A DNA stretch of 64,000 nt, taken from an uncultured Bacteroidota bacterium (GTDB lineage: Bacteria > Bacteroidota > Bacteroidia > Bacteroidales > VadinHA17). Made by a program: the position numbers and the translations under genes. The notes under the pieces were generated by a model. It made no database searches and had not been told where the DNA came from. It was given only the letters and a program-made list of their open reading frames with translations. The DNA lies in the NCBI GenBank assembly GCA_903844815.1, contig CAIMVD010000270.1:1-64000 (forward strand). Direction: 5' to 3'. Shown here piece after piece: positions 206-30,780 of this stretch. The number at the start of each line of letters is the position of its first letter. Position 1 is the first letter of the stretch.

Positions 206-1501
206 TCACTTACTGATCTTTATATGATTTTTGTTAAAACTTTCCAGTTTATAATAAGCTAGAAGAAAAGCAAAAACCGGAAAGAAAGTTATTCCTGCCA
301 GCCTGTTCAGCACTGTCTCGAACGTAAAAAAGACCACCATCATTATTATGAATAATCCCAGAAGAAGATTTCTTTCCGAAATTGCAGAATATACCATATA
401 TGATATGAGTGATAGAAATATCAGTATTCCTACAATCCCATTCTCAAGCAGGATTTCAAGAAACTGGTTATGAGCATTCAGGTTATCGTAATATCCGTCT
501 ACATAACCCCGTTTTTTAAATTCCTTTTTAAGTTCCTCTGAAGCATCGCCTGTCCCTACTCCGAGAATCAGATTAGATCCGATAACTCCAAAGGCAGATT
601 TCCAGATCAGGTATCTTGTATCTTTCGAAAATGTCCCAGTAACTCCTGAACTTGACAATTCTTCGATTGAATATTTAATACGATCATTAGTCTTAAGCAT
701 CACAACTGATCCCAAACCTGCAATTACAAGTACAATGACAATCAAAGATTTTGAAACCCTGCGGTAAAACTTGAGAACAAAGTATAAGGATAACACGATA
801 AAGCCTGCCATTACTCCTGCCCTAGAGGAAAGCAGATAAATAACAATTATAAAAACAAGAGCAGAAAATAACCATAAATATCTTTTGGAATGAGACAGAT
901 TCAAATCGAAAACTGATTCAAGGGAAATCAGGGCCGACAGTAATACGTACATTGAAAGATAAGAGGGATGCACAATTGAGGAAAGCCTTGCTCCCATAAA
1001 AAAATTCTCATAGGTGTACAGTTCATGATAAGCATTGAAGATCCACTTTCCGTCCTTATAAACGAGTGAATTGTGAAGGGCATTACAAAAACAGTATAAC
1101 AGGTAAAGAAAGACAGAAATACCAAATACACGTAATATCAGTTTTACATTCCCTTCAATCTTGCATCCCGGATAAAACAAGACCATCGGAAAAAGCAACA
1201 TTGAGAGCCTTTTAAAAATACGTTCAAAACCCGAATTAAGAGAGTTTGCTAATAATAACCCTCCTGTTTGCCATAGAAATAAGGAGAGAAATAACAAGAA
1301 GAGAATTGCAGGCTGATTTCCTTTGAAAGTAAATTTACTGAAACCCTGACGATTTTCAAAAATCCATAGTAACCCCCATAATATCATGAAGGGCGGTAAC
1401 CAATGAATATATAACGGCAGTACTACTATACACGACAAGCACGCATAAAATGTTAGTGACCCGTTAACAGAAAGCTCCTTAAACCTCATTTTTTTAATCA
1501 A
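206..1501 (-). CDS. O-antigen ligase / polymerase family membrane protein (Wzy-like)
   Basis: 431 aa, many TM segments; 'GVGTGDASEELKKEF...NLNAHNQFLEILLENGIVG' typical of the Wzy_C/O-antigen ligase family. Confidence 0.85.
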   Translation of the reverse strand: MIKKMRFKELSVNGSLTFYACLSCIVVLPLYIHWLPPFMILWGLLWIFENRQGFSKFTFKGNQPAILFLLFLSLFLWQTGGLLLANSLNSGFERIFKRLSMLLFPMVLFYPGCKIEGNVKLILRVFGISVFLYLLYCFCNALHNSLVYKDGKWIFNAYHELYTYENFFMGARLSSIVHPSYLSMYVLLSALISLESVFDLNLSHSKRYLWLFSALVFIIVIYLLSSRAGVMAGFIVLSLYFVLKFYRRVSKSLIVIVLVIAGLGSVVMLKTNDRIKYSIEELSSSGVTGTFSKDTRYLIWKSAFGVIGSNLILGVGTGDASEELKKEFKKRGYVDGYYDNLNAHNQFLEILLENGIVGILIFLSLISYMVYSAISERNLLLGLFIIMMVVFFTFETVLNRLAGITFFPVFAFLLAYYKLESFNKNHIKISK

Positions 1502-1536: not shown

Positions 1537-1800
1537 TCAGAAATTGTTAAGAAATTCAGCAACCTGAACTATATCTGATTCAGTATGAGAAACCGATATT
1601 GGAAGACTCAGAGTCGTCGAATGTATTTCCTCTGAAACAGGGAAGCTCTGATCCTTCAGACATAACATTGCTTTTTGCCTGTGAGGGGGAACAGGATAAT
1701 GAATTTCAGTCACCTCCCCATTATCGAGGAGATATTTTTTCAAAATAAACTGCTACAAGATCCCGTTTGTGTTTGGTAATCCGGGTTCCAGAAGCACACA
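1537..1800 (-). pseudogene. C-terminal remnant of DegT/DnrJ/EryC1/StrS aminotransferase (FdtB-like)
   Basis: [14 protein letters not shown]...[34 protein letters not shown] aligns with the C-terminus of the intact aminotransferase at 27505-28587; upstream RITKHKRDL in another frame implies a frameshift; no N-terminal domain. Confidence 0.85.
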
Positions 1801-2042
1801 CCTGGATGGCGTATCAAGATGAAAAACCTCATCAAAACTGCCATTATTATTGTAGATCTTGCATTCGCCCTTAATACAAACTGCTGCATGTACTGTACTA
1901 TGATGCCTGTGCCCTCCCCTCACAGAACTATCAACACCTAGATATAGAAAACCCTCTGGATAGTGAAAGGAAGTACATCCTCAATCACAGTAAGGTTTCC
2001 CCTGCTATCTGTATGTGTCTCGAGATCTATTATATACGCCAT
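1785..2042 (-). pseudogene. Remnant of FdtA/QdtA-like sugar 3,4-ketoisomerase (cupin), frameshifted and 3'-truncated
   Basis: Minus strand reads ETHTDSRGNLTVIEDVLPFTIQRVFYI, then after an apparent 1-nt deletion GVDSSVRGGHRHHSTVHAAVCIKGECKIYNNNGSFDEVFHLDTPSRCVLLEPG; matches the intact cupin at 29334-29705. Confidence 0.85.
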
Positions 2043-2044
2043 AA

Positions 2045-3028
2045 TTATTTATTTATTTTCAGCACGTTATATCCGAGTTGTTCCTTCAAAAAGCTTTTGA
2101 CTCTCTCCTTTATTCCCTTCCCTCCGTACCTGAAATAGCCCGTTGAATATTCAGGAAATAAATCATGTAAAAATTGTTCCTTTTTTGCAATATTAATTGC
2201 ATAAACTGTATAAAAAAGTTCTCTAATATCCTCTGGAATTATATACCAACCTATATCGAAACTGTCGTCGCCAATAATTTTGACATACTGATAGTGATAA
2301 AAGACAACCTTGAATTCTGATCCTGAGCTCTTAAGCCTGCCATTGATAATATTCCCATCTCCCGAGAATGAATAGTTTGTAACATTCCAGGGGGCAACTC
2401 CTCCTCCATGATTTTGCAGAATATGCACATTATCGTAAATATCAGGCCATTCGTCAAGATATTTCTGATCCCCGAATTTACCATCCTCATACCTTGCATA
2501 GCACCATTCTATGCATTGGTTTTTCCATCTTTCGAGGACCTTAAGGCTGTTTTCTTCATTCGTAAAAGTCATAAACTGAACACAAAACCTTCCGGCTTTT
2601 TTCTCACCATGAAGCTTTGCCAGAATTGAAAACCTGTGCTCAGTAACAAGAACATTCCCTCCTGACGAAACAAGTTCATCTGTAAGAACTGAAGGATCAG
2701 ACCAGAAAATCAAGTCGGCATCGACGTAAGTGAATTCAGGCAAACCTTTAATCTTAATAAGGTGCCAGAGTACCGAAGGTGTCGATGTCCAGCAATATTC
2801 TGCCTTACTCCTGTTTCCTTTCACCTCTTTCAGTTCCTTATTCTCAAATTCTGAAAGAGGTACGACGGTAACATTTTTCAATTTTAGATGACTTAGGATA
2901 CTCCATGAAAGATCATCAAAGGCAAAAATAAACAGATGATATGAAGATGACCATTCTTCAAGAGATTCATGCATTAACAACCCACGTGAAAGATAAAACG
3001 AATCGAAAAGGGTACAGTAGTATCTCAT
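2045..3028 (-). CDS. Glycosyltransferase-like protein (GT-A fold, DxD-like 'YVDADL')
   Basis: 327 aa; homologous to 26495-27478 (shared YCTxFDxxYLxR, VEHRFS, DQKYLDxWPxxY motifs). Confidence 0.7.
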   Translation of the reverse strand: MRYYCTLFDSFYLSRGLLMHESLEEWSSSYHLFIFAFDDLSWSILSHLKLKNVTVVPLSEFENKELKEVKGNRSKAEYCWTSTPSVLWHLIKIKGLPEFTYVDADLIFWSDPSVLTDELVSSGGNVLVTEHRFSILAKLHGEKKAGRFCVQFMTFTNEENSLKVLERWKNQCIEWCYARYEDGKFGDQKYLDEWPDIYDNVHILQNHGGGVAPWNVTNYSFSGDGNIINGRLKSSGSEFKVVFYHYQYVKIIGDDSFDIGWYIIPEDIRELFYTVYAINIAKKEQFLHDLFPEYSTGYFRYGGKGIKERVKSFLKEQLGYNVLKINK

Positions 3029-3061: not shown

Positions 3062-4726
3062 TCACTTTTTAATTCTGAAACCTGATTGGAGATTCCGCCC
3101 CCTGACTTCAATCTTTTCCAATGGATAAGGAACACATGGAATTTCTGTATCAAAACAGCCTCCTTCAGGTATCGGTACCTTGTATGAAAATCCTGAATTG
3201 AGTTCCCGTGTTTCAACCTTCCCGAAAGGAGCAGGAATTACCCATAAACGCGGAGAGCTGATTACCTCAACTGGAGTCATTATGCGCCGGCCAATAATAA
3301 TAATCAGGAATAAAAGAAGGCCCGCCCTCGATATGCTGTAGAAAAAATCCTTATTCCGCTTTAATGCTAATCCTGCAAGGTATGATAATGTAAGAGAAAA
3401 TCCGGTGAAGAGAAATCCGTATGCAAACCTGGGGTCAGGTGCCATTATGAACCAGAAAAGCAGACTGGCGAGGATCACAGCCTGTAATGCAGCCAACCTG
3501 TAATCCCCCCTGAAAATCATAATGCATGTAGCTACTACCGACAGCAGGTTAACAACCAGAATTATCTTGCTGTCTGAATTCAATGCTTTGAACCACAAAG
3601 GAGTCCATTCAGTGAATTTCATCTTTTCAACCTCCTGATAAGATACTGTGGAAACCTTCGCCCAGCCGCTGATTTCGCGCTTCATACTATTTGCCTCCTC
3701 AATAGGAATCTTCCAGTCAACATCGAAGATATCAACCTCAGGATATGGATAAACCGGATAACCCGATAAATAGTAATTTCTTATCAGAAAAGGAGAGAGT
3801 ACAAGAACTCCCAACATTACTGAGAGAAGTGCCTTTTTGAAAAAATCCCTTTGCATTACCAGGGGAAGTAACAAAAGGATAAAGAGGGAGCTAAGCTTAA
3901 ATGAAACTGTTGTGAATACAAGCAGATTTATTAAAATTACCCTTCTGAAATCAGGTTCCTCGTTTCGAAAATAAATCCCGGCAAGAATAGCAAAAAGGTA
4001 TAGGATAAATATTGAACAAATTATGTCCGGCGCCGGTGAATTCAGATCGGAAAGAAGAATGTACAGGCTGATAAGCAAAAGCAGCATAAAGAAAAGAGCA
4101 TGCCAGATTGCATTTTTCCTGAATTCACCCACTGCAAGAATTACAAGCTTTAATGAAAGAATCAGAAACAGAAAACCGTTAAGTGGAAAAATCAGGACCT
4201 CTCCTATTCTGAAGGTAAACATTCCTGAAACAACAAAGAACATGGAGTTGAAGGCCAGACGTCCATGGATATTACCGAGACCCGGAACAACAGCGAATTT
4301 CCTTACCCATTGAATAGATTGCGCATGATATGATTCGGTGTCACCAAGGGATATGCGACGGGCTACTGCCATTAAAATGAGAATGAAAATCGATAATAAA
4401 AAATAAAGTTCCGGTTTGCTGAAACTGCATTTATTGATCCAAAAATCACCTGCAAGTTTCCTAAACTGATCCCTTTTTATTACAATAATAATTATTGAGG
4501 CAACAGACCATATAATCAGAATTACAGTACCTACAGGAAACCATATTGACAGGAATCCCGTGATAACAGAAATCACCGCAAAACCGGTAAATATGAGCTC
4601 ATCCCATTCCGGTGTGCCATAAGAAGCCCCTCCCTTGCTATAATATCTAACTACAGCAAGGGTCAGATATCCTGTAACAAGAAAATTTAGTAAAGCAACC
4701 AGCCAGGCTAATAAAACAAGAATCAT
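3062..4726 (-). CDS. Polytopic membrane protein, LIC_10190-like / GT-C type candidate glycosyltransferase
   Basis: 554 aa, multiple TM; loop motif 'GDTESYHAQSIQWVRKFAVVPGLGNIHGRLAFNS'. Confidence 0.6.
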   Translation of the reverse strand: MILVLLAWLVALLNFLVTGYLTLAVVRYYSKGGASYGTPEWDELIFTGFAVISVITGFLSIWFPVGTVILIIWSVASIIIIVIKRDQFRKLAGDFWINKCSFSKPELYFLLSIFILILMAVARRISLGDTESYHAQSIQWVRKFAVVPGLGNIHGRLAFNSMFFVVSGMFTFRIGEVLIFPLNGFLFLILSLKLVILAVGEFRKNAIWHALFFMLLLLISLYILLSDLNSPAPDIICSIFILYLFAILAGIYFRNEEPDFRRVILINLLVFTTVSFKLSSLFILLLLPLVMQRDFFKKALLSVMLGVLVLSPFLIRNYYLSGYPVYPYPEVDIFDVDWKIPIEEANSMKREISGWAKVSTVSYQEVEKMKFTEWTPLWFKALNSDSKIILVVNLLSVVATCIMIFRGDYRLAALQAVILASLLFWFIMAPDPRFAYGFLFTGFSLTLSYLAGLALKRNKDFFYSISRAGLLLFLIIIIGRRIMTPVEVISSPRLWVIPAPFGKVETRELNSGFSYKVPIPEGGCFDTEIPCVPYPLEKIEVRGRNLQSGFRIKK

Positions 4727-8011: not shown

Positions 8012-8444
8012 GGGCATAGCCGTCAAGCTAAGGAGTCTGAAAACAGGTTGGGATTAGATAAGGCAAGATAACCAGATAATTAAGATGATATTAAGAGTAA
8101 AAACTCTCCCCTCCTCGGGATGACAAATTATTTGTGTGCATGAGGGGGGAAGGAAGCAGCGGCGATTCAATAGTAATTTTATCAGTCATCAACATTCAGG
8201 TGAATCGCCGCTGCTTCCTTCCCCCCTTGTCCTCCCAAAAACCCATGTCATCCTGAATTCTTCCGCTCAAAGAAATAAGTATTTAACCGAAATCTTTCAA
8301 GCGGAAGAATGAAGGATCTCTCAATTCTAAACAGATTACAGAAGTAATATACTAAGTAAAATGTGTATAAAGATTAGCTTCAAAAGGAGGGGAAATTTTT
8401 AATCCGCATTTCCAATTCCTATCTTAGCTTGACAGCTATGTCCC
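8012..8444. repeat. ~430-bp intergenic block bounded by near-perfect ~21-bp inverted repeats
   Basis: gggcatagccgtcaagctaag (8012-8032) versus cttagcttgacagctatgtccc (8423-8444); inverted with one mismatch and one 1-nt gap. Confidence 0.75.
8143..8227. repeat. Perfect 27-bp inverted repeat with 31-bp loop
   Basis: aggggggaaggaagcagcggcgattca (8143-8169) / tgaatcgccgctgcttccttcccccct (8201-8227). Confidence 0.95.
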
Positions 8445-8583
8445 ATGGGGGGGCTTTATAAGTAACAACCTATCAATAAATCATCTCAATTAAATTTTTG
8501 GGTAAAAGACAAGAGACCAAATTTAAATGATTCACTGGCACCAACCAAGCCAATCCCTTTCAAAAAACGGCAATGAAGGTTTC

Positions 8584-9381
8584 CTACTTCAACGAAAAAA
8601 TAAACCCTTTAAATTCCGACCGTATATTCGCTTTATCGAGTGCATCAAATTCCATAACCAGATCATAATCCCGTGTCAGTGCTGAGATAAATTTATCCTT
8701 ATTGAAAAACCTGCAGGGATAGCTGCCTGAATAGATCCGGGGATTTACCTTTTGAACTGTTATCCGGTCTTTCCCGCTGACGAACGGAGTCCTGTCGATT
8801 ATAATATACCTAATTCCAAGCAATTTTACCTTCTCGAGTATCAAAAACGGATCTTCGAGGTACTGCAAAACGCTTGAAAACAGCGCCACATTTACTTTGT
8901 AGGATTTGCAGCACTCGTCAATGGAATCGAAAAAATGAAGCCTTTCATCTTCAAAATGCTTCTTTCCTGATTTTACAAAACCCTGCTGTTCCACCACAGA
9001 CCAGTTGACCTCAGGAAGTGAATCAAGAAATTTCCTGTTCTGGTAATAGGCAGAGCCAAGCGAACCTCCGAAATCAAGAATATTGATTCTACCATTATTA
9101 AGTGCAGCCACCCACATCAAGGCTGCCAGAAGAGGGTAAGAGTATTGCACTTCATCAAATAGAAATGAATCCCTTTCGCAGGCGGCTTCTCCTGACTTGA
9201 CAAGCAGGGATGATTCTTCCACCTTTTTTAAAATTGCATCGGCATTATACCCTGAACAACTTGCACTTGCTTCGTTCCAGTTGGAATAGTTACCATGCCA
9301 GCCATAAAAAATTCCTGTAACCGCCCTGATTAAACTGCCGGGAAGTACTCGTTTTACAGCATTCCGTAAATTAAATTTCAT
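8584..9381 (-). CDS. TIGR04325-family putative methyltransferase
   Basis: GWHGNYSNWNEASASCSGYNADAIL...LDFGGSLGSAYYQNRKFL...SSVLQYLEDP characteristic of the family. Confidence 0.8.
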   Translation of the reverse strand: MKFNLRNAVKRVLPGSLIRAVTGIFYGWHGNYSNWNEASASCSGYNADAILKKVEESSLLVKSGEAACERDSFLFDEVQYSYPLLAALMWVAALNNGRINILDFGGSLGSAYYQNRKFLDSLPEVNWSVVEQQGFVKSGKKHFEDERLHFFDSIDECCKSYKVNVALFSSVLQYLEDPFLILEKVKLLGIRYIIIDRTPFVSGKDRITVQKVNPRIYSGSYPCRFFNKDKFISALTRDYDLVMEFDALDKANIRSEFKGFIFSLK

Positions 9382-9384
9382 AGC

Positions 9385-10611
9385 CTAGTTTAAACCCCTA
9401 ACAGTCAGTTCATTTTTAAGTATCTCGATAATTGTCTTGCACCGGGAGTCGACAGAATGTGATTTAAGAGTCCGTGTTTGTCCCGACACTGCTATTCGTC
9501 TTCTCTCAGAATCATTATCAAGAAGCCATTTAATTTTTTCGGCACACTCCTCAGAAGTATCATAGACAACAACTTCATTGCCAATATCAAAAAGGTCTTT
9601 GAGATTACTTTTATTATCTGTAAGAAGGCAGCTTCCGGCACCGGTGGCCTCGAAAAGACGCATATTTCCTGCATATTTACCCGCAACATCACCGTGGTTG
9701 TTAAGGACGATCCTTGAACAATTGAGAAGCTTATACATTTCAAACCCATATCTGGGCCCTCTGATATTCTTTCGGATAATCTCCGGATAAAAATTTACAG
9801 GATTATTGCCATAATGAAGAAGGCTCATAATCGCTTCAGGATTCTTAATACCAGCTTTTTTAAAAAGACGATTCAAATAAAATAAAAATTTCTTAACAAG
9901 TATCCTCAGGTTACTCTCCGTGTTGACAAAGAGTGAAATATTTATTCCCCTATTCAAAAGATCCTCCAGCAATGCAATCCTTTCATTATGATATCCTCCT
10001 CCATGAATCAGGGAACCGGTAAAAACAACCTCATTAAACGGGTAGCTGTCAAGGGTATCAATTTCAGTGAGGAGGTCAAGATCGAAACCATGGTATACAA
10101 GGTAAGATTTTATTCCCGCTTTTTCCAGATCAACCTTAAGCCCGGGGGTACAAGTAATAACCAGATCGAGCAATTTCAGCTTTTCAAGACCCTGTGGATT
10201 AATTGGGGCACAATGGTAACCGACAACGAGTTTAATGAAATCAACCTTTTTCCTTATCTTTTTCAGAAATTCTGGCTTTAAAAATCTAAGATCTTCGATC
10301 CACAGGACATCCGGCCGGAAGTGGGCGATTCTTTTGAGAATCATGTCTTCAGCATCAGAAATCCGCAACTGATATGCCTCCGCCCATTTTTTCTGTAACT
10401 TCCTGTCATTTACGATCATGCAGTCGACAGCTACCCCATTGCGGGAAAATGCCCTTGTATATGATGCTGCAAATTCAGTTGAATCGGAAAGCAATGCTTT
10501 ATAATGCCCATCATAGTCCATACCTGAGACCTCAGGGTATTTCGCGTAGAATTTCCTCAGGTACCCCGGATACATTGAACTTATTATCAGCAATCTGAAA
10601 CTCAGTATCAT
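9385..10611 (-). CDS. Glycosyltransferase (CgeB-like / glycosyl transferase group 1)
   Basis: 408 aa; VFTGSLIHGGGYHNERIALL...RLFEATGAGSCLLTDNKSNLKDLF...GNEVVVYDT. Confidence 0.7.
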   Translation of the reverse strand: MILSFRLLIISSMYPGYLRKFYAKYPEVSGMDYDGHYKALLSDSTEFAASYTRAFSRNGVAVDCMIVNDRKLQKKWAEAYQLRISDAEDMILKRIAHFRPDVLWIEDLRFLKPEFLKKIRKKVDFIKLVVGYHCAPINPQGLEKLKLLDLVITCTPGLKVDLEKAGIKSYLVYHGFDLDLLTEIDTLDSYPFNEVVFTGSLIHGGGYHNERIALLEDLLNRGINISLFVNTESNLRILVKKFLFYLNRLFKKAGIKNPEAIMSLLHYGNNPVNFYPEIIRKNIRGPRYGFEMYKLLNCSRIVLNNHGDVAGKYAGNMRLFEATGAGSCLLTDNKSNLKDLFDIGNEVVVYDTSEECAEKIKWLLDNDSERRRIAVSGQTRTLKSHSVDSRCKTIIEILKNELTVRGLN

Positions 10612-10623
10612 CTTTAATTCAAC

Positions 10624-11943
10624 TTATGAAACAACCTGTACTCCCTGAATATTTTTTTCATAATTCATCACGATTCGGAACATCATTGTCAATACAGCAA
10701 TATAGCAAACGATCTCAATCAGCACATAAATCTTCAAAAACTCCGTGAATTCAAAGTTCCTGAGCAACAATAAAGAAAGAATCGAAATAAAATAACAGAA
10801 TTGCCAGATACTGTAATATTTAATTTTCCGCATCGAAATGAAAATGCATGAAAATGACGACACAATAAAATTCAGTATAAATGACCAAACCATTATCCTC
10901 GATATTTCTCCCGAAACGCCCCAGTTCTGGCCAAAAACTATTTTGAAAAGCGGAATGCCAAACAGCATTATCACTACTAATTCAGCCAATGAGATCGCAA
11001 GTACAATCCAAAGTGTACTTTTCAGTTCGGAAATGAAACTCTTTTTTGAATTAAAACTGTCGGCTACTTGCTGAAGCAGCACACTTGAAATTGAAGATGC
11101 AACAAAAGCCAGCGGTATTGAAAGCACCATTTTTGTCAGATCAAAGTAACCCGCACTTTCCGATGAAAAGAATTTATTAATGAATACCGGAGGAAGGAAG
11201 AAACTGCAGGTACTCATTAATGCAGGGATAAGGTTATATCTGGGAAATTCAGAGTACCTGGAGGCAACATATTTTAGTTTATTTACGCTTACTAGTTTAA
11301 GAGAAAAACCGTTCCTGAAGGATTGAATAATCGTAGATATTGAATTGGCTGTCTGACCAGCAATATCGCTCAGAATAAGACCTGCGGGATTTTTAAAAAA
11401 GGCCAGCGTTACCTGCGAAAGGCCTTCGCTACCTCTCCTTATAAGCTTATTCGCAGATACTCCGGTGTATTTCTTTTTCCTGATCAGCCAGTAATTAAAT
11501 GACTGAGCAACATTATAAAGGAAGGCTCCAAGAGGAATAATATACAGAACCGAAGAAGTAAAGCCGGGTTTAAGATTTACAGCGCTCAGAATCTGTTTAC
11601 CAAAAAGAAGGAATACAATAAATACGACAAGAGTTATGCCCAGGTTAAAAACGAGAGATAGTGCAAGCAGGCTTGCTGAATCCTTATCCTTTCGGGGCAG
11701 GACAATTGCATCATCATAACGAAGCGAAGAGAACACCGCAATTATGCCTACCATGCTGAGATATACCGAATAGGTACCCCACATTTCTGCTGTGAACAGC
11801 CGGCGCAATAAAGGCTGAAGAAGAACCGATACTAATTGAGCCAGCACAGTACCCGATACAAGCACCGATGTATTGCGGATCAATTCTGATTTAAAAATGG
11901 TTCTTGGATTCACGTTGGGTAAAGATGTGGCTTTAAAAGTCAA
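10624..11943 (-). CDS. Oligosaccharide flippase / polysaccharide biosynthesis membrane protein (Wzx-like)
   Basis: 439 aa polytopic; N-terminal 'NTSVLVSGTVLAQLVSVLLQPLLRRLFTAEMWGTYSVYLS' typical of the family. Confidence 0.88.
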   Translation of the reverse strand: MTFKATSLPNVNPRTIFKSELIRNTSVLVSGTVLAQLVSVLLQPLLRRLFTAEMWGTYSVYLSMVGIIAVFSSLRYDDAIVLPRKDKDSASLLALSLVFNLGITLVVFIVFLLFGKQILSAVNLKPGFTSSVLYIIPLGAFLYNVAQSFNYWLIRKKKYTGVSANKLIRRGSEGLSQVTLAFFKNPAGLILSDIAGQTANSISTIIQSFRNGFSLKLVSVNKLKYVASRYSEFPRYNLIPALMSTCSFFLPPVFINKFFSSESAGYFDLTKMVLSIPLAFVASSISSVLLQQVADSFNSKKSFISELKSTLWIVLAISLAELVVIMLFGIPLFKIVFGQNWGVSGEISRIMVWSFILNFIVSSFSCIFISMRKIKYYSIWQFCYFISILSLLLLRNFEFTEFLKIYVLIEIVCYIAVLTMMFRIVMNYEKNIQGVQVVS

Positions 11944-12941
11944 CCCTTAGTGAATGGAACTTTCCTGTCGACACTAAGAGTTATGAGATAATATAAGACA
12001 AGGGTAAGGATAAACAGCGGAATCTGAAGTACTTTAATTTCCCGGTAAACAGCTATGAGTATAATGATTCCTATGTTTATTGCTATAAGAAAATAAATCA
12101 CTTTCTGGTGTGAATAACCAGCCTGGATTATCCGCTGATATACATGCTTCCTGTGGCCGGTACTTAATTTTTCTCTGTTTCTCCAGCGTCGGAAAAGAGT
12201 AAGTGTCGTATCAAACCAGAAAGGGGATGTTAACATAATCCAGTTAAGGATTGAAAAATCAAAGGTATTATGGAAATGAATACCCATTACAACTATTATA
12301 AATCCAAGCTGGGTGCTTCCGACATCACCCATGAAAATTTTCGCCTTGGGCCAGTTCCAGTATAAGAAACCCGATACGCAAAAGACAAGCAACAAATTCG
12401 CAAGGTTCCAGGTAAAAACAAACAAAACTGAACAAATAATAATAGCTTCAACCGAAGCAAATCCATCGACGCCGTCCATAAAGTTGAAAAGATTTATGAA
12501 CCAGACCATGCCGACAATCGCAAGAGGATAGATCAGGAACTGATAATCCGCTTCAAATCCGGGCAAAATAAGCGGCCTCAGTCCTCCCAGCAACCAGAAA
12601 GCCAGTACAGCAGTTAAAAAATGGACAAACAGCCTGACAGAGGGCTTAATATCAATTATATCATCAATAAAACTTACAATAGCCAGCAGGACTCCTGACA
12701 TTAATGCAAGGAAGAACTGCTTCTCAACGATGCCCGAGAAATATAAAACAATGAGACCTGTATACCAGGTAATTACTATAGCTATGCCTCCTCCAAAAGG
12801 CGTTGGTATATTATGAAGACTCCTTTCGTTAGGAAGCGCAACCATCTTTCTCCTGAGTGCATAGTTTTTTATCATCCATGTCAGAATGAATGACAATAAA
12901 CCAAGGAGAACAATCAGAATAAAAGACGTTAGAAAATTCAA
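11940..12941 (-). CDS. WecA/MraY-like undecaprenyl-phosphate sugar-1-phosphate transferase (GT4)
   Basis: NERSLHNIPTPFGGGIAI...SFIDDIIDI...NLFNFMDGVDG...KIFMGDVGSTQLGF...GHRKHVYQRI. Confidence 0.9.
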   Translation of the reverse strand: MNFLTSFILIVLLGLLSFILTWMIKNYALRRKMVALPNERSLHNIPTPFGGGIAIVITWYTGLIVLYFSGIVEKQFFLALMSGVLLAIVSFIDDIIDIKPSVRLFVHFLTAVLAFWLLGGLRPLILPGFEADYQFLIYPLAIVGMVWFINLFNFMDGVDGFASVEAIIICSVLFVFTWNLANLLLVFCVSGFLYWNWPKAKIFMGDVGSTQLGFIIVVMGIHFHNTFDFSILNWIMLTSPFWFDTTLTLFRRWRNREKLSTGHRKHVYQRIIQAGYSHQKVIYFLIAINIGIIILIAVYREIKVLQIPLFILTLVLYYLITLSVDRKVPFTKG

Positions 12942-26494: not shown

Positions 26495-27478
26495 CTATAC
26501 TTTAATCAAATCACCAAACAAGACCATCCTTAGATTACGAAAACAATTAATTATCAGTCTTTTTAGAGATATGTTCGAATATTTAGGATTTACCGTTTTC
26601 TTTGTAATATCTGAACCTAAGGATACTGACCGGAGTTTTTTAATATAAAATGAATAGATGTTTGATTTAATAGTTCTATTGGGTTTTACCAGATATGAGC
26701 TTATGGAAGTTGTAAAATATTTGTCCGATTTTTGTCGGAGTCCGGCAAAATGATAAAATATCAATTTATTCCCGTCAACTAATATAGTATCACCTTTTCT
26801 TTCAATTTTATAATTTCCTACATTCCAGCATGCAAGATTAACCCCTTTATTTTTTATTACAACAAGACCGGAATATTTTTGAGGCCATTTATCAAGATAT
26901 TTCTGATCAGCATATTTATCTCCGTCAAGATAATCAAAACACCAATCAATACATTGTTGCCTATACTCTTGCAGACATTCAATTCCCTGAATATCACGAC
27001 GATATGTTATCCAGGCAACATTAAAAATTCCCAGATTCAGAAATTTCCTTCCGTATTTTGAAAACCGGTGTTCTACAATTGCGAGTGACTTATCACCAAT
27101 TTCCTCAAAAATAGGCTCTGGTGATGAAAAAAACAAAAGATCAGAATCGAGGTAGGTAAGAAGATTTATATTGTCAAACTTATCGAATACATAGCAGCTT
27201 ATCGCCGGAGTACAGGTAAAATAATATTCAATAAGCGACCTGGTTTGTTTAACTGAGGAGATTGCTGTATCGTGAGCTTCGAGGTCACGATAACTTACCG
27301 GCACAACTGACTGTTGACCAAGGCTTAATATTGTCGCATAGGATTCATCATCCATGCAGAATGCAAATATCCTGAAGTCGGAACAAAATTCATTCATGGA
27401 ATCATGCATTGTAAGAAAACGAGCCAAGTAATTACGGTCAAAAATTGTACAATAGTTTCTCAACATAACCGACTTCAT
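26495..27478 (-). CDS. Glycosyltransferase-like protein (GT-A fold), paralog of 2045-3028
   Basis: 327 aa; RNYCTIFDRNYLARFLTMHDSMNE, 'TYLDSDLLFF', VEHRFSKYG, DQKYLDKWPQKYSG. Confidence 0.7.
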   Translation of the reverse strand: MKSVMLRNYCTIFDRNYLARFLTMHDSMNEFCSDFRIFAFCMDDESYATILSLGQQSVVPVSYRDLEAHDTAISSVKQTRSLIEYYFTCTPAISCYVFDKFDNINLLTYLDSDLLFFSSPEPIFEEIGDKSLAIVEHRFSKYGRKFLNLGIFNVAWITYRRDIQGIECLQEYRQQCIDWCFDYLDGDKYADQKYLDKWPQKYSGLVVIKNKGVNLACWNVGNYKIERKGDTILVDGNKLIFYHFAGLRQKSDKYFTTSISSYLVKPNRTIKSNIYSFYIKKLRSVSLGSDITKKTVNPKYSNISLKRLIINCFRNLRMVLFGDLIKV

Positions 27479-27504
27479 TTTTAGTAAAAAATAATACTGA
27501 GAAA

Positions 27505-28587
27505 TTAAAAAGAGTTTATGACTTCTGAAACTTTTAAAACATCATCAGGAGTATGAAAAGATGAAATAGGCAAACTCAATGTAGTAGAATGGATCTCTTC
27601 AGAAACAGGATAATTACCTGAAATTATTCCTTCCATGGCTTTTTGTTTATGAGGAGGGACTGGATAGTGAATTTCAGTTTTTATTTCGTGTTTAAGAAGA
27701 TATTCCCGAAGCAAATCCCTTTTAGTGTGCCTGATGTTAAAGATGTGATATACATCGTAGAAATCTTCTTCTACACGCGGTTTAATAATATCACTCTTCA
27801 GATTGGCCAGATAGATGTTTGCCAGATTGCGTTTATGTTGAGTTAGTTTTTCGAGTGATCTGAGTTTAATTAGAAGAAATCCTGCCTGTATTTCATCCAG
27901 TCGGGAATTCAAACCAACATATTCGTTGAAGTATTTTACCTTTGACCCGTAATTTCGCAAAAACCTTACTTTTTCGGCGAGTTCAGGTATGTCTGTAGTT
28001 ATAGCGCCTGCATCACCCAATGCACCCAGATTTTTGGTGGGATAAAAACTATGAGCCCCAAAATCCCCAAATGTTCCTGATATCTTACCCTTGAACATGG
28101 CTCCATGCGACTGGGCACAGTCTTCAATTAACCGAAGATCGTTTCTTTTACAGATTTCAACAATTTCATCCATCTGACAGCATTTGCCATAAAGATGCAC
28201 AACCATTATTGCCCTTGTATTAGGAGTAATTTTTTCCTCTATTTTTTTTGGGTCAATATTGTAGGTATTAATATCCGGTTCAACAAGTACTGGTGTAAGG
28301 TTGTTTTGAATTATTGAAAGAATTGTTGCAATGTAGGTATTTGAAGGAACAATCACTTCTGCTCCCGGTTTAAAATCAAAACATCTGAGTGAAAGGTTCA
28401 GTGCATCAAGACCTGATGCCAATCCTACACATTCATGTGAACCTAAATATTCCGAAAAAGCCTTTTCGAAAGAAACAACATTTTGCCCCAGGATATACCA
28501 GCCTGATTCCAGAATATTGCTGAATTTTTCTTTATATTCTTCAAAAAACGGTCTGTTAAGCCTGCCTAAATTTTCATATTCGATCAT
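27505..28587 (-). CDS. Sugar aminotransferase, DegT/DnrJ/EryC1/StrS family (FdtB/QdtB-like)
   Basis: [15 protein letters not shown]...[16 protein letters not shown]...[13 protein letters not shown]...EDCAQSHGA...[16 protein letters not shown]; start trimmed to [11 protein letters not shown]. Confidence 0.92.
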
Positions 28588-29278
28588 TTTCAAGATTATT
28601 TTGTGCAATTAATAAAAATAGGCTATTGTATCCAAGTTGAAATTCTTGTCTTATACGATAATGTTTTGACCAGATTCCAATAAAAGAGCTTTTTGATCTG
28701 GAGTATCCGCAGTCGATAAGTCTCTTTTTCCTGATTATGCTAAGAATGAAAGTTTTAAATTCACTAATGACGATTCTTGGACCAAGCAACTGGGCTGGCA
28801 GGAAAAAAATATACTTTACACCCTGTTCCCTTAGTTTTTCAAAAATAAAACTGAGCTGGGAATCCTTAAATTCTGTATCTATTCGTGGGAAAAGTACAAG
28901 TGTATTTTCATCAACAGGTAAGGCTTCATTTAAAATGTCAAGCTGAAGACAATCATCAAAAATGTTAAATTCTTTTAATCGTAAAACTGCAGGTGTATAG
29001 TCAGAAATTACAATCCGAAGGTCAGAGAATTTCTTAATTTGATATTCAAGTGCTGCTATCCCTGACCCCATAGAAAATATATTAACAAGTCCTAAACCTG
29101 AAGCTGTCTCCAAAATGTTTTTAACTGCAGATGAAGGCTCTGATGTATCTACTCTCTCAATATACTTATCCTTTGAATATGGAAGGTAATAGGAAGTCTC
29201 TGACTGATTATTCCTCAGTTGCTCCCAATCGAGAGCACTATAATCGTCGGAAAAAAAGGATCTGTGTTTTATTTTCAT
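28574..29278 (-). CDS. Uncharacterised protein with possible SAM-methyltransferase-like Rossmann fold
   Basis: 234 aa; '[54 protein letters not shown]' resembles a methyltransferase SAM-binding region; sits between FdtA-like and FdtB-like genes. Confidence 0.5.
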
Positions 29279-29333
29279 TCTTTAATTTAGTTTTTTTCTT
29301 CTCGTACTGAAAGTAATAAATATTAAATCCCGT

Positions 29334-29705
29334 TTAATTGTAGGGATCATATATATAATCATTGCTGTCATAAAATTCTGACGCCAAAACCATCAGTATA
29401 CAATCCTTTGAGAAATTATCCATCCAATGAAAATCTTCCGGTTGGAGAATAAGACACTCAGAAGGCGAATCAAGCAGATACTCCTGAAGAGGGGTGTTAT
29501 CACCCGATTTACTTAAAATTCTGCATTTACCCTGAATTGCAATGGCAGCCTGTACAGTTTTCTTATGGCGGTGATATCCACGTGAAGAGTTATCAACTCC
29601 ATATATGTAAAAAATCCTTTTTATTTCAAATGGGATAATCTTCTCAATAACGGTTAGATTTCCGCGTATATCGGTAAAGGTCTTCAAATTCATTAAACTA
29701 CTCAT
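29334..29705 (-). CDS. FdtA/QdtA-like dTDP-4-dehydro-6-deoxyglucose 3,4-ketoisomerase (cupin)
   Basis: LKTFTDIRGNLTVIEKIIPFEIKRIFYIYGVDNSSRGYHRHKKTVQAAIAIQGKC...LQPEDFHWM; likely start MSSLMNLK or MNLK rather than the longest ORF. Confidence 0.88.
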   Translation of the reverse strand: MSSLMNLKTFTDIRGNLTVIEKIIPFEIKRIFYIYGVDNSSRGYHRHKKTVQAAIAIQGKCRILSKSGDNTPLQEYLLDSPSECLILQPEDFHWMDNFSKDCILMVLASEFYDSNDYIYDPYN

Positions 29706-30780
29706 CTGACTTATCTTTGGAATTAACAAAATTAATTGCACTTATAAACCCTTCAGCCATTTGCTCCGGTTGCCTGTTTTCATTATAAAATCCGGCTGCT
29801 TTTTCACCCATTATTCTGTATTCATCCAGATGGCTGTTCATTTCACTTAATATTATCACTAATTCAGAATGGCTATTATACAAAACACCTGTTTCTCCAT
29901 TAACAATATTAAATATTTCGCCTCCTGTTATGGAGTTGCAGCTTGTAATAAACGGAACACCATATCCCATGCTTTTCAAAACGGAAAGACCTGCCTGGTC
30001 AGGCGATATCGTAGCAATGGCCGAGTGGAAATATATTTCAAGTTCAGAGTCATCATATATTGCACCACACAGCCTTATTTTTTCTTCGAGATTATTATCG
30101 ACAATCCATGACTGAATATTTTGAAATTCCTGACCATCACCAATTATAAAAAGGTTGGGAATATTAATATTGATGGCAATCGCTGATTTATATGCAAATA
30201 ATAACTCATAAATTCCTTTTTCACGATAAAGAGTTCCGATAAAAAGGATTGATTCCAATTTCTTTTTTGTGGTAATTGTTCTTTTAATACTCACAGTGTT
30301 GTTTGCAACAAAGAGACCTTCCCGGCGAAAACCATGATCAACATATTTGTTTATCGGATAGGAACTATAGAAAATCTGAGCATCTGCCCCTTTCATAAAA
30401 TAAAACCTTAAAAAGTCCCATTTAGTGTTCTGATCCAATCTGTTTTTGTATGAAGCCGATACCCCAATGCCCCAATAAATAAGTTTAAAATTCCTCCTTT
30501 TTCTCCCAAGCATCATGAGTGAGAGAAAATGAATGTCGCCCATTGCGATAACTACATCGAATTGACTACATGTATTGAAAAGATTATCAACAAAATAAAT
30601 AGGCCCGACTTTTCGACACCCAAGCGACATCTTCTTGAAAGAATAGGTTTCCTGCAATGGCTTACCCCAAAAGTAGATTACAGTAAGGTCAATCAGGTTG
30701 TTTTTCCCAATCAGATCATAAACCGGGATGTTATAGTGCGCAATATAATTTTGAATAAGCAGGACTTTGATTATTTTCAT
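29698..30780 (-). CDS. Glycosyltransferase family 4
   Basis: LFIGTLYREKGIYELLFAYKSA...LFIIGDGQEFQNIQSWI...ATISPDQAGLSVLKSMGYGVPFITSCNSITGGEIF. Confidence 0.87.
   Translation of the reverse strand: MKIIKVLLIQNYIAHYNIPVYDLIGKNNLIDLTVIYFWGKPLQETYSFKKMSLGCRKVGPIYFVDNLFNTCSQFDVVIAMGDIHFLSLMMLGRKRRNFKLIYWGIGVSASYKNRLDQNTKWDFLRFYFMKGADAQIFYSSYPINKYVDHGFRREGLFVANNTVSIKRTITTKKKLESILFIGTLYREKGIYELLFAYKSAIAININIPNLFIIGDGQEFQNIQSWIVDNNLEEKIRLCGAIYDDSELEIYFHSAIATISPDQAGLSVLKSMGYGVPFITSCNSITGGEIFNIVNGETGVLYNSHSELVIILSEMNSHLDEYRIMGEKAAGFYNENRQPEQMAEGFISAINFVNSKDKSDE

Follow-up and report, generated by a model that had tools for sequence, protein, structure and literature searches.

A glycosyltransferase gene left beside decayed FdtA and FdtB genes in a Bacteroidota polysaccharide cluster

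The stretch of DNA analyzed here, referred to as the window, comprises bases 1 to 64000 of the 64,829-base contig C270, which belongs to the genome of an uncultured Bacteroidales bacterium (6.4 Mb in 411 contigs, with a completeness of 97.8%). In its polysaccharide gene cluster, a genuine and recent pseudogene pair, psi-FdtA and psi-FdtB, stands beside an intact glycosyltransferase gene, GT1; a second cassette with intact FdtA and FdtB genes and its own glycosyltransferase, GT2, is found further along the same contig (Table 1).

Table 1. Features of the decayed module, its flanks, and the second cassette in the window
Feature	Position	Strand	Evidence or remark
O-antigen-ligase/Wzy-like gene	206..1501	-	Pfam PF04932; conserved downstream of the module among congeners
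psi-FdtB C-terminal piece, 68 codons and stop	1537..1743	-	Pfam PF01041 (DegT), E 3.3e-6
psi-FdtB internal piece, in another frame	~1733..1783	-	tblastn with residues 246-266 of L078 FdtB
psi-FdtA second piece, with the histidines of GHRH; lacks the C-terminal third	1784..1937	-	Pfam PF05523
psi-FdtA single-base frameshift	1938..1940 (approx.)	-	Creates an immediate in-frame stop
psi-FdtA N-terminal piece, 34 codons	1941..2042	-	82-91% identity to FdtA of the closest relatives keeping FdtA
GT1, 327-aa glycosyltransferase, first gene of the GT1-FdtA-FdtB module	2045..3028	-	Intact ORF
554-aa membrane protein	3062..4726	-	Upstream flank, common to L075
GT2, 327 aa, second (intact) cassette	26495..27478	-	33% identity to GT1
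Intact FdtB-like aminotransferase	27505..28608	-	Pfam PF01041, E 8e-102
Orphan 234-aa ORF between FdtA and FdtB of the second cassette	28574..29278	-	Inserted
Intact FdtA ketoisomerase	29334..29741	-	Pfam PF05523, E 1.6e-31 (29337-29741)

Three-frame translations of the minus strand at positions 1537 to 2042 were compared with the intact genes at 26.5 to 29.7 kb. Residues 13 to 46 and 38 to 101 of the intact 29.3-kb FdtA match two frames that break at about 1938 to 1940. The first of these, from 2042 to 1941, reads MAYIIDLETHTDSRGNLTVIEDVLPFTIQRVFYI; the second reads GVDSSVRGGHRH...CVLLEP, runs to about 1785, matches the Pfam FdtA family (PF05523, positions 1756 to 1923, E value of 2.5e-7), and is 69 to 73% identical to its closest orthologues. 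Alignment with four intact orthologues (L078, L079, L080, and L086) places the frameshift at an identical position, bearing out the proposal of the first-pass annotation that an FdtA-like cupin had lost one nucleotide near 1940. The same annotation had this cupin fused near 1785 to 1800 to the C-terminal end of an FdtB-like aminotransferase. The C-terminal end is indeed there: the last 69 residues of the intact 27.5-kb aminotransferase match positions 1743 to 1537 with 59% identity (tblastn E value of 1.5e-24), and the piece is 65 to 66% identical to FdtB of L078 and L079. An internal FdtB piece had been missed, however, and when joined with the C-terminal match it gives an E value of 9e-25 in tblastn with L078 FdtB as the query. 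There are accordingly two junctions, at about 1783 to 1786 and about 1733 to 1745, and two deletions, of about 0.84 kb and about 0.09 kb when measured on L078. The larger took the C terminus of FdtA together with the N-terminal two thirds of FdtB, and the smaller lies in the interior of FdtB; the loss is not of the middle of both genes, as first described, but of the FdtA C terminus and most of FdtB. Loss of an intervening gene, which had also been suggested, is rejected because FdtA directly overlaps the start of FdtB in intact orthologues. Whole-nucleotide alignment of the junctions was usable for the frameshift only, the sequences being too divergent beyond it, and microhomology suspected at the second junction was not confirmed in relatives.

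The FdtA remnant, frameshifted as it is, stops before the WHKM segment seen in L078 and G275, and no continuous frame covers the barrel with its third active-site histidine, which is His95 in FdtA (PMC2943079). Only residues ~246 to 266 and 293 to 360 of L078 FdtB have counterparts in psi-FdtB; the segment with the PLP lysine (SFYPTKN) and the complete DegT fold, both present in the intact 27.5-kb gene, are lost. Given the frameshift, the loss of the FdtA C terminus, and the loss of the FdtB N-terminal and PLP segments, neither gene can therefore encode a working enzyme, and the FdtA remnant is to be regarded, from its sequence, as a pseudogene of the PF05523 family and not as a working member. 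Chance resemblance to FdtA and FdtB is excluded by the E values and by synteny. Decay of sugar-nucleotide genes is common in polysaccharide loci, and the psi-FdtA/psi-FdtB pair in itself is fairly ordinary gene decay of an already known kind.

The neighboring GT1 has no sequence match in Pfam, NCBIfam, or PDB and none to the GT8 sequence profile up to an E value of 10. Its AF2 model (pLDDT of 92.8) nevertheless has a predicted GT-A fold resembling GT8 structures, the top PDB matches in Foldseek being XXYLT1, glycogenin, LARGE1, and 3tzt (E values of 1e-8 to 3e-7), with TM-scores by query length of only 0.3 to 0.5. GT1 shares with these proteins a DxD metal-binding motif, D103-A-D105, both aspartates of which are among the 41 invariant columns in an alignment of 62 sequences, but its identity to them is about 11 to 19%. 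It is a separate sequence family and, lacking a GT8 profile match, is therefore called GT8-like here and not placed in GT8. All invariant residues are kept in GT1. It departs from the consensus at 4 of the 81 positions conserved at ≥90% (0 to 5 in its kin), carries C99F where 61 relatives are invariant, and has a somewhat long branch (0.57). GT1 may thus be drifting itself, although relaxation of the gene appears to be at most slight.

Relatives of GT1 are widespread; a single genome scan gave no fewer than 475 candidate stretches. Among the 80 database loci that match GT1 best, spanning Bacteroidota, Ignavibacteria, Campylobacterota, and others, 56 hold a three-gene block of a GT1-family gene, FdtA, and FdtB (GT-FdtA-FdtB in 47, FdtA-FdtB-GT in 9), and many of the remaining loci run off a contig end or were detected only in part. 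Because these loci were the best hits, genomes sampled evenly from the class were searched as well. Among these, with the window genome left out, FdtA is found in 22 of 23 genomes with GT1, within 1.5 kb in 17 of them, versus 47 of 173 genomes without GT1 (Fisher P value of 1.4e-10). From this linkage across loci and genomes, we infer that the FdtA/FdtB sugar is very probably transferred by GT1. A recurring acetyltransferase of the FdtC type is not seen in the GT1-FdtA-FdtB modules of the surveyed loci. Some loci depart in other ways: FdtB is split into two overlapping ORFs near GT1-family genes in L094 (4865 to 5954) and L122 (3108 to 4156), by frameshift or assembly error, and in L153 (7271 to 8365, minus strand) FdtB lies on the strand opposite GT1 and FdtA, an inverted module.

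The window genome has two further FdtA/FdtB sets, one at 27.5 to 29.7 kb and the other on contig C362. The former corresponds to the intact relatives that the first-pass annotation had placed about 25 kb from the decayed ketoisomerase/aminotransferase pair with its intact glycosyltransferase, a description that holds. Its FdtA matches the FdtA structure 2pa7 (E value of 6.5e-28), and its aminotransferase has 5u1z, 7n63, and QdtB (3frk) as its closest solved relatives. GT2 had been taken as a member of the same family as GT1; the two are of equal length and related, but at only 33% identity, and GT2 is a lone long branch in the glycosyltransferase tree. Like GT1, GT2 has no match in Pfam or NCBIfam. 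The orphan ORF inserted in this cassette has no match in Pfam, PDB, or 61 congeners; on inspection its sequence looks Rossmann-like, possibly that of a methyltransferase, and its single-sequence model (pLDDT of 40) is unusable. The C362 set (L043, G000:C362:10000-29000, positions 8019 to 11385, minus strand) consists of an FdtA, an FdtA fused to a GNAT acetyltransferase, a Pfam-less 326-aa protein, and a DegT aminotransferase. Tandem FdtA sets like this one are also present in the genomes of L075, L077, and L078.

The same ketoisomerase and aminotransferase families act in two described pathways (PMC2943079): FdtA/FdtB/FdtC of Aneurinibacillus thermoaerophilus (dTDP-Fuc3NAc; PDB 2pa7 for FdtA) and QdtA/B/C of Thermoanaerobacterium (dTDP-Qui3NAc; PDB 3frk for QdtB). 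Unlike these, the operon here includes a GT8-like glycosyltransferase, and FdtA and FdtB of the window are pseudogenes. Solved structures from Campylobacter and Helicobacter include the ketoisomerases 5tpv and 7n67 and the aminotransferases 5u1z and 7n63, to the last two of which the intact 27.5-kb FdtB is closest. Helicobacter brantae and a Sulfurospirillum also have GT1-FdtA-FdtB modules, in a phylum different from that of the window.

Where did the decayed pair come from? The three genes GT1, FdtA, and FdtB are intact at the same site in G275 and in L078 (the same locus as G265), with the ligase-like gene directly after FdtB. GT1 is immediately followed by intact FdtA and FdtB in the congeners G275, G265, G008, G019, G034, G015, G278, and G262; in most of them, the upstream genes match window genes at 8584 to 12941, and the O-antigen-ligase-like gene lies downstream wherever the contig reaches far enough. 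The same ligase-like neighbor is found in L032, L033, L075, L078, and L180. The window has this order and these flanks, GT1 being followed by psi-FdtA, psi-FdtB, and the Wzy-like gene, and its 554-aa membrane protein shares 49% identity, over 292 aa, with the product of the gene that precedes GT1 in L075. With intact orthologues at the same locus and the same flanks, the remnant is therefore in its ancestral place. The first-pass annotation had instead presented it as a decayed copy of the 27.5- to 29.7-kb cassette. The same two enzyme families are present in both, and homology is evident on alignment with 26495 to 29741, in the C-terminal end of the aminotransferase (59% identity) as well as in FdtA. 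However, the two segments of psi-FdtA are only 59% and 46% identical to the 29.3-kb FdtA, which ranks about 61st and 68th among the matches to the two pieces, versus 91% and 72% to the L075 orthologue (88 to 91% and 71 to 72% for L075 and L078). Cassettes of the FdtA-FdtB-GT2 type also occur in G008 and G009, and G008 holds both types intact on different contigs. Closer orthologues elsewhere and the coexistence of both types in G008 therefore indicate two ancestral modules and not a duplication, which is rejected on match ranks and synteny and seems very improbable. The difference in gene order relative to the glycosyltransferase, correctly observed in the first pass, has another cause: there are two ancestral architectures, GT1-FdtA-FdtB and FdtA-FdtB-GT2, the latter with the orphan gene inserted here. 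It is scarcely credible that the lesions are sequencing or assembly artifacts. The assembly is fragmented, and a single-base frameshift by itself could be an assembly error, but two deletions hardly could; they are separate, internal to a 64.8-kb contig, and bordered by intact genes on either side, and sister species have independent lesions in the same gene.

Compared piece by piece, in identity or in changes by codon position, the remnant has diverged from intact orthologues to about the same degree as these have from one another. Changes in the remnant fall mostly at codon position 3, as in the first FdtA piece versus L075 (0.09/0.03/0.71 by codon position), and most of the divergence would thus have arisen while the genes were functional. 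As divergence hardly exceeds that among intact orthologues and retains the third-position bias, the inactivation is therefore recent.

FdtB has also disappeared from close relatives. In the GT1 tree, the window, L075, L076 (G010), L077 (G031), L078, and G275 form one clade with support of 99/99. FdtB is whole in L078 and G275 and absent in L075. An 11-residue N-terminal scar, MIEYENLYTVK (L032, 5066 to 5098), runs in frame into the ligase-like gene in G010, in whose assembly no FdtB orthologue was found; G031 instead carries genes for a dehydrogenase of the Gfo/Idh type and for an aminotransferase of 42% identity at this position. FdtA is whole throughout the clade except in the window, that is, kept in three of the four FdtB-loss lineages, and GT1 is intact throughout. 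A single loss shared by L075, G010, and G031 as a clade without the window is rejected (AU test P value of 0.007); because of this, and because FdtB of the window was alive until recently, FdtB was lost at least three times among these six species, unless regained by transfer. The N-terminal scar of G010 and the C-terminal scraps of the window are different events. A Gfo/Idh-type dehydrogenase paired with a second DegT aminotransferase is found repeatedly right before the ligase-like gene, whether or not an intact FdtB precedes the pair (L033, 11092 to 13224; L037, 7688 to 9891; L181, 8625 to 10769; L182, 8365 to 10560).

On the orthology, synteny, lesions, recent loss, and linkage of GT1 to FdtA/FdtB observed here, the best explanation is that the region is, in all likelihood, the recently decayed form of an ancestral three-gene operon, GT1-FdtA-FdtB. 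FdtA (3,4-ketoisomerase) and FdtB (3-aminotransferase) would have made a dTDP-3-amino-3,6-dideoxyhexose, and GT1 would have transferred this sugar, or an acylated form of it, to the growing polysaccharide. The frameshift and the two deletions then put FdtA and FdtB out of action, leaving GT1 and the downstream ligase-like gene intact. It is plausible that GT1 now has no dedicated donor pathway or shares one. Does it still act? Quite possibly it does, with its donor made in trans by FdtA/FdtB at 27.5 to 29.7 kb or by the C362 set. QdtB, a related aminotransferase, takes both C-4 epimers (PMC2943079), and with two other FdtA/FdtB sets in the genome, supply in trans is plausible. Another FdtA/FdtB set is present in three of four FdtB-less genomes versus two of eight FdtB-bearing ones, a difference that is not significant (P value of 0.22); the FdtB-less L075 and G031 hold a C362-like set, and G010 is without one.

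One might tentatively suppose, instead, that the whole unit is dying, the 3-amino-sugar branch having been given up and GT1 being intact merely for lack of time. The recent loss, the slightly long branch and C99F of GT1, and a second related glycosyltransferase with a complete cassette 23 kb away would fit this course, but the frame and all invariant residues of GT1 are intact, and the gene also survives the independent FdtB losses of L075, G010, and G031, which suggests use without an adjacent FdtB. A change of donor is improbable, though repeated loss of FdtB (at least three times) with GT1 retained, and usually FdtA too, would suit it: GT1, alone or with FdtA, would work after FdtB loss with another donor, such as a sugar made by a different aminotransferase or a 6-deoxy sugar without an amino group. 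The dehydrogenase and aminotransferase in the FdtB place of G031 and the missing orthologue in G010 point the same way. However, G034, G278, and G262 have the Gfo/Idh and aminotransferase pair next to an intact FdtB, which weakens the case for a dedicated replacement, and the window has lost FdtA too.

We found nothing specific in the literature on this glycosyltransferase with FdtA/FdtB or on fdtB pseudogenes. Beyond an ordinary pseudogene pair, the decayed operon draws attention to a series of independent losses of FdtB at one site and to a glycosyltransferase family that has no profile. In the survey, this family, for which Pfam has no model, is strongly linked in genomes to the synthesis of 3-amino sugars. 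Among the six species, FdtB is whole in L078 and G275, replaced in G031, gone from L075, and reduced to an N-terminal scar in G010 and to C-terminal scraps here; the series offers a way to test whether the aminotransferase is the exchangeable step of such pathways. A more general reading, doubtful at present, is that in this clade GT1 and FdtA, as a unit, have repeatedly shed their dedicated aminotransferase and that the GT8-like family serves 3-amino (or 3-keto-derived) 6-deoxy sugars, with the donor supplied in trans or changed; if this were true, the series would have gone furthest in the window.
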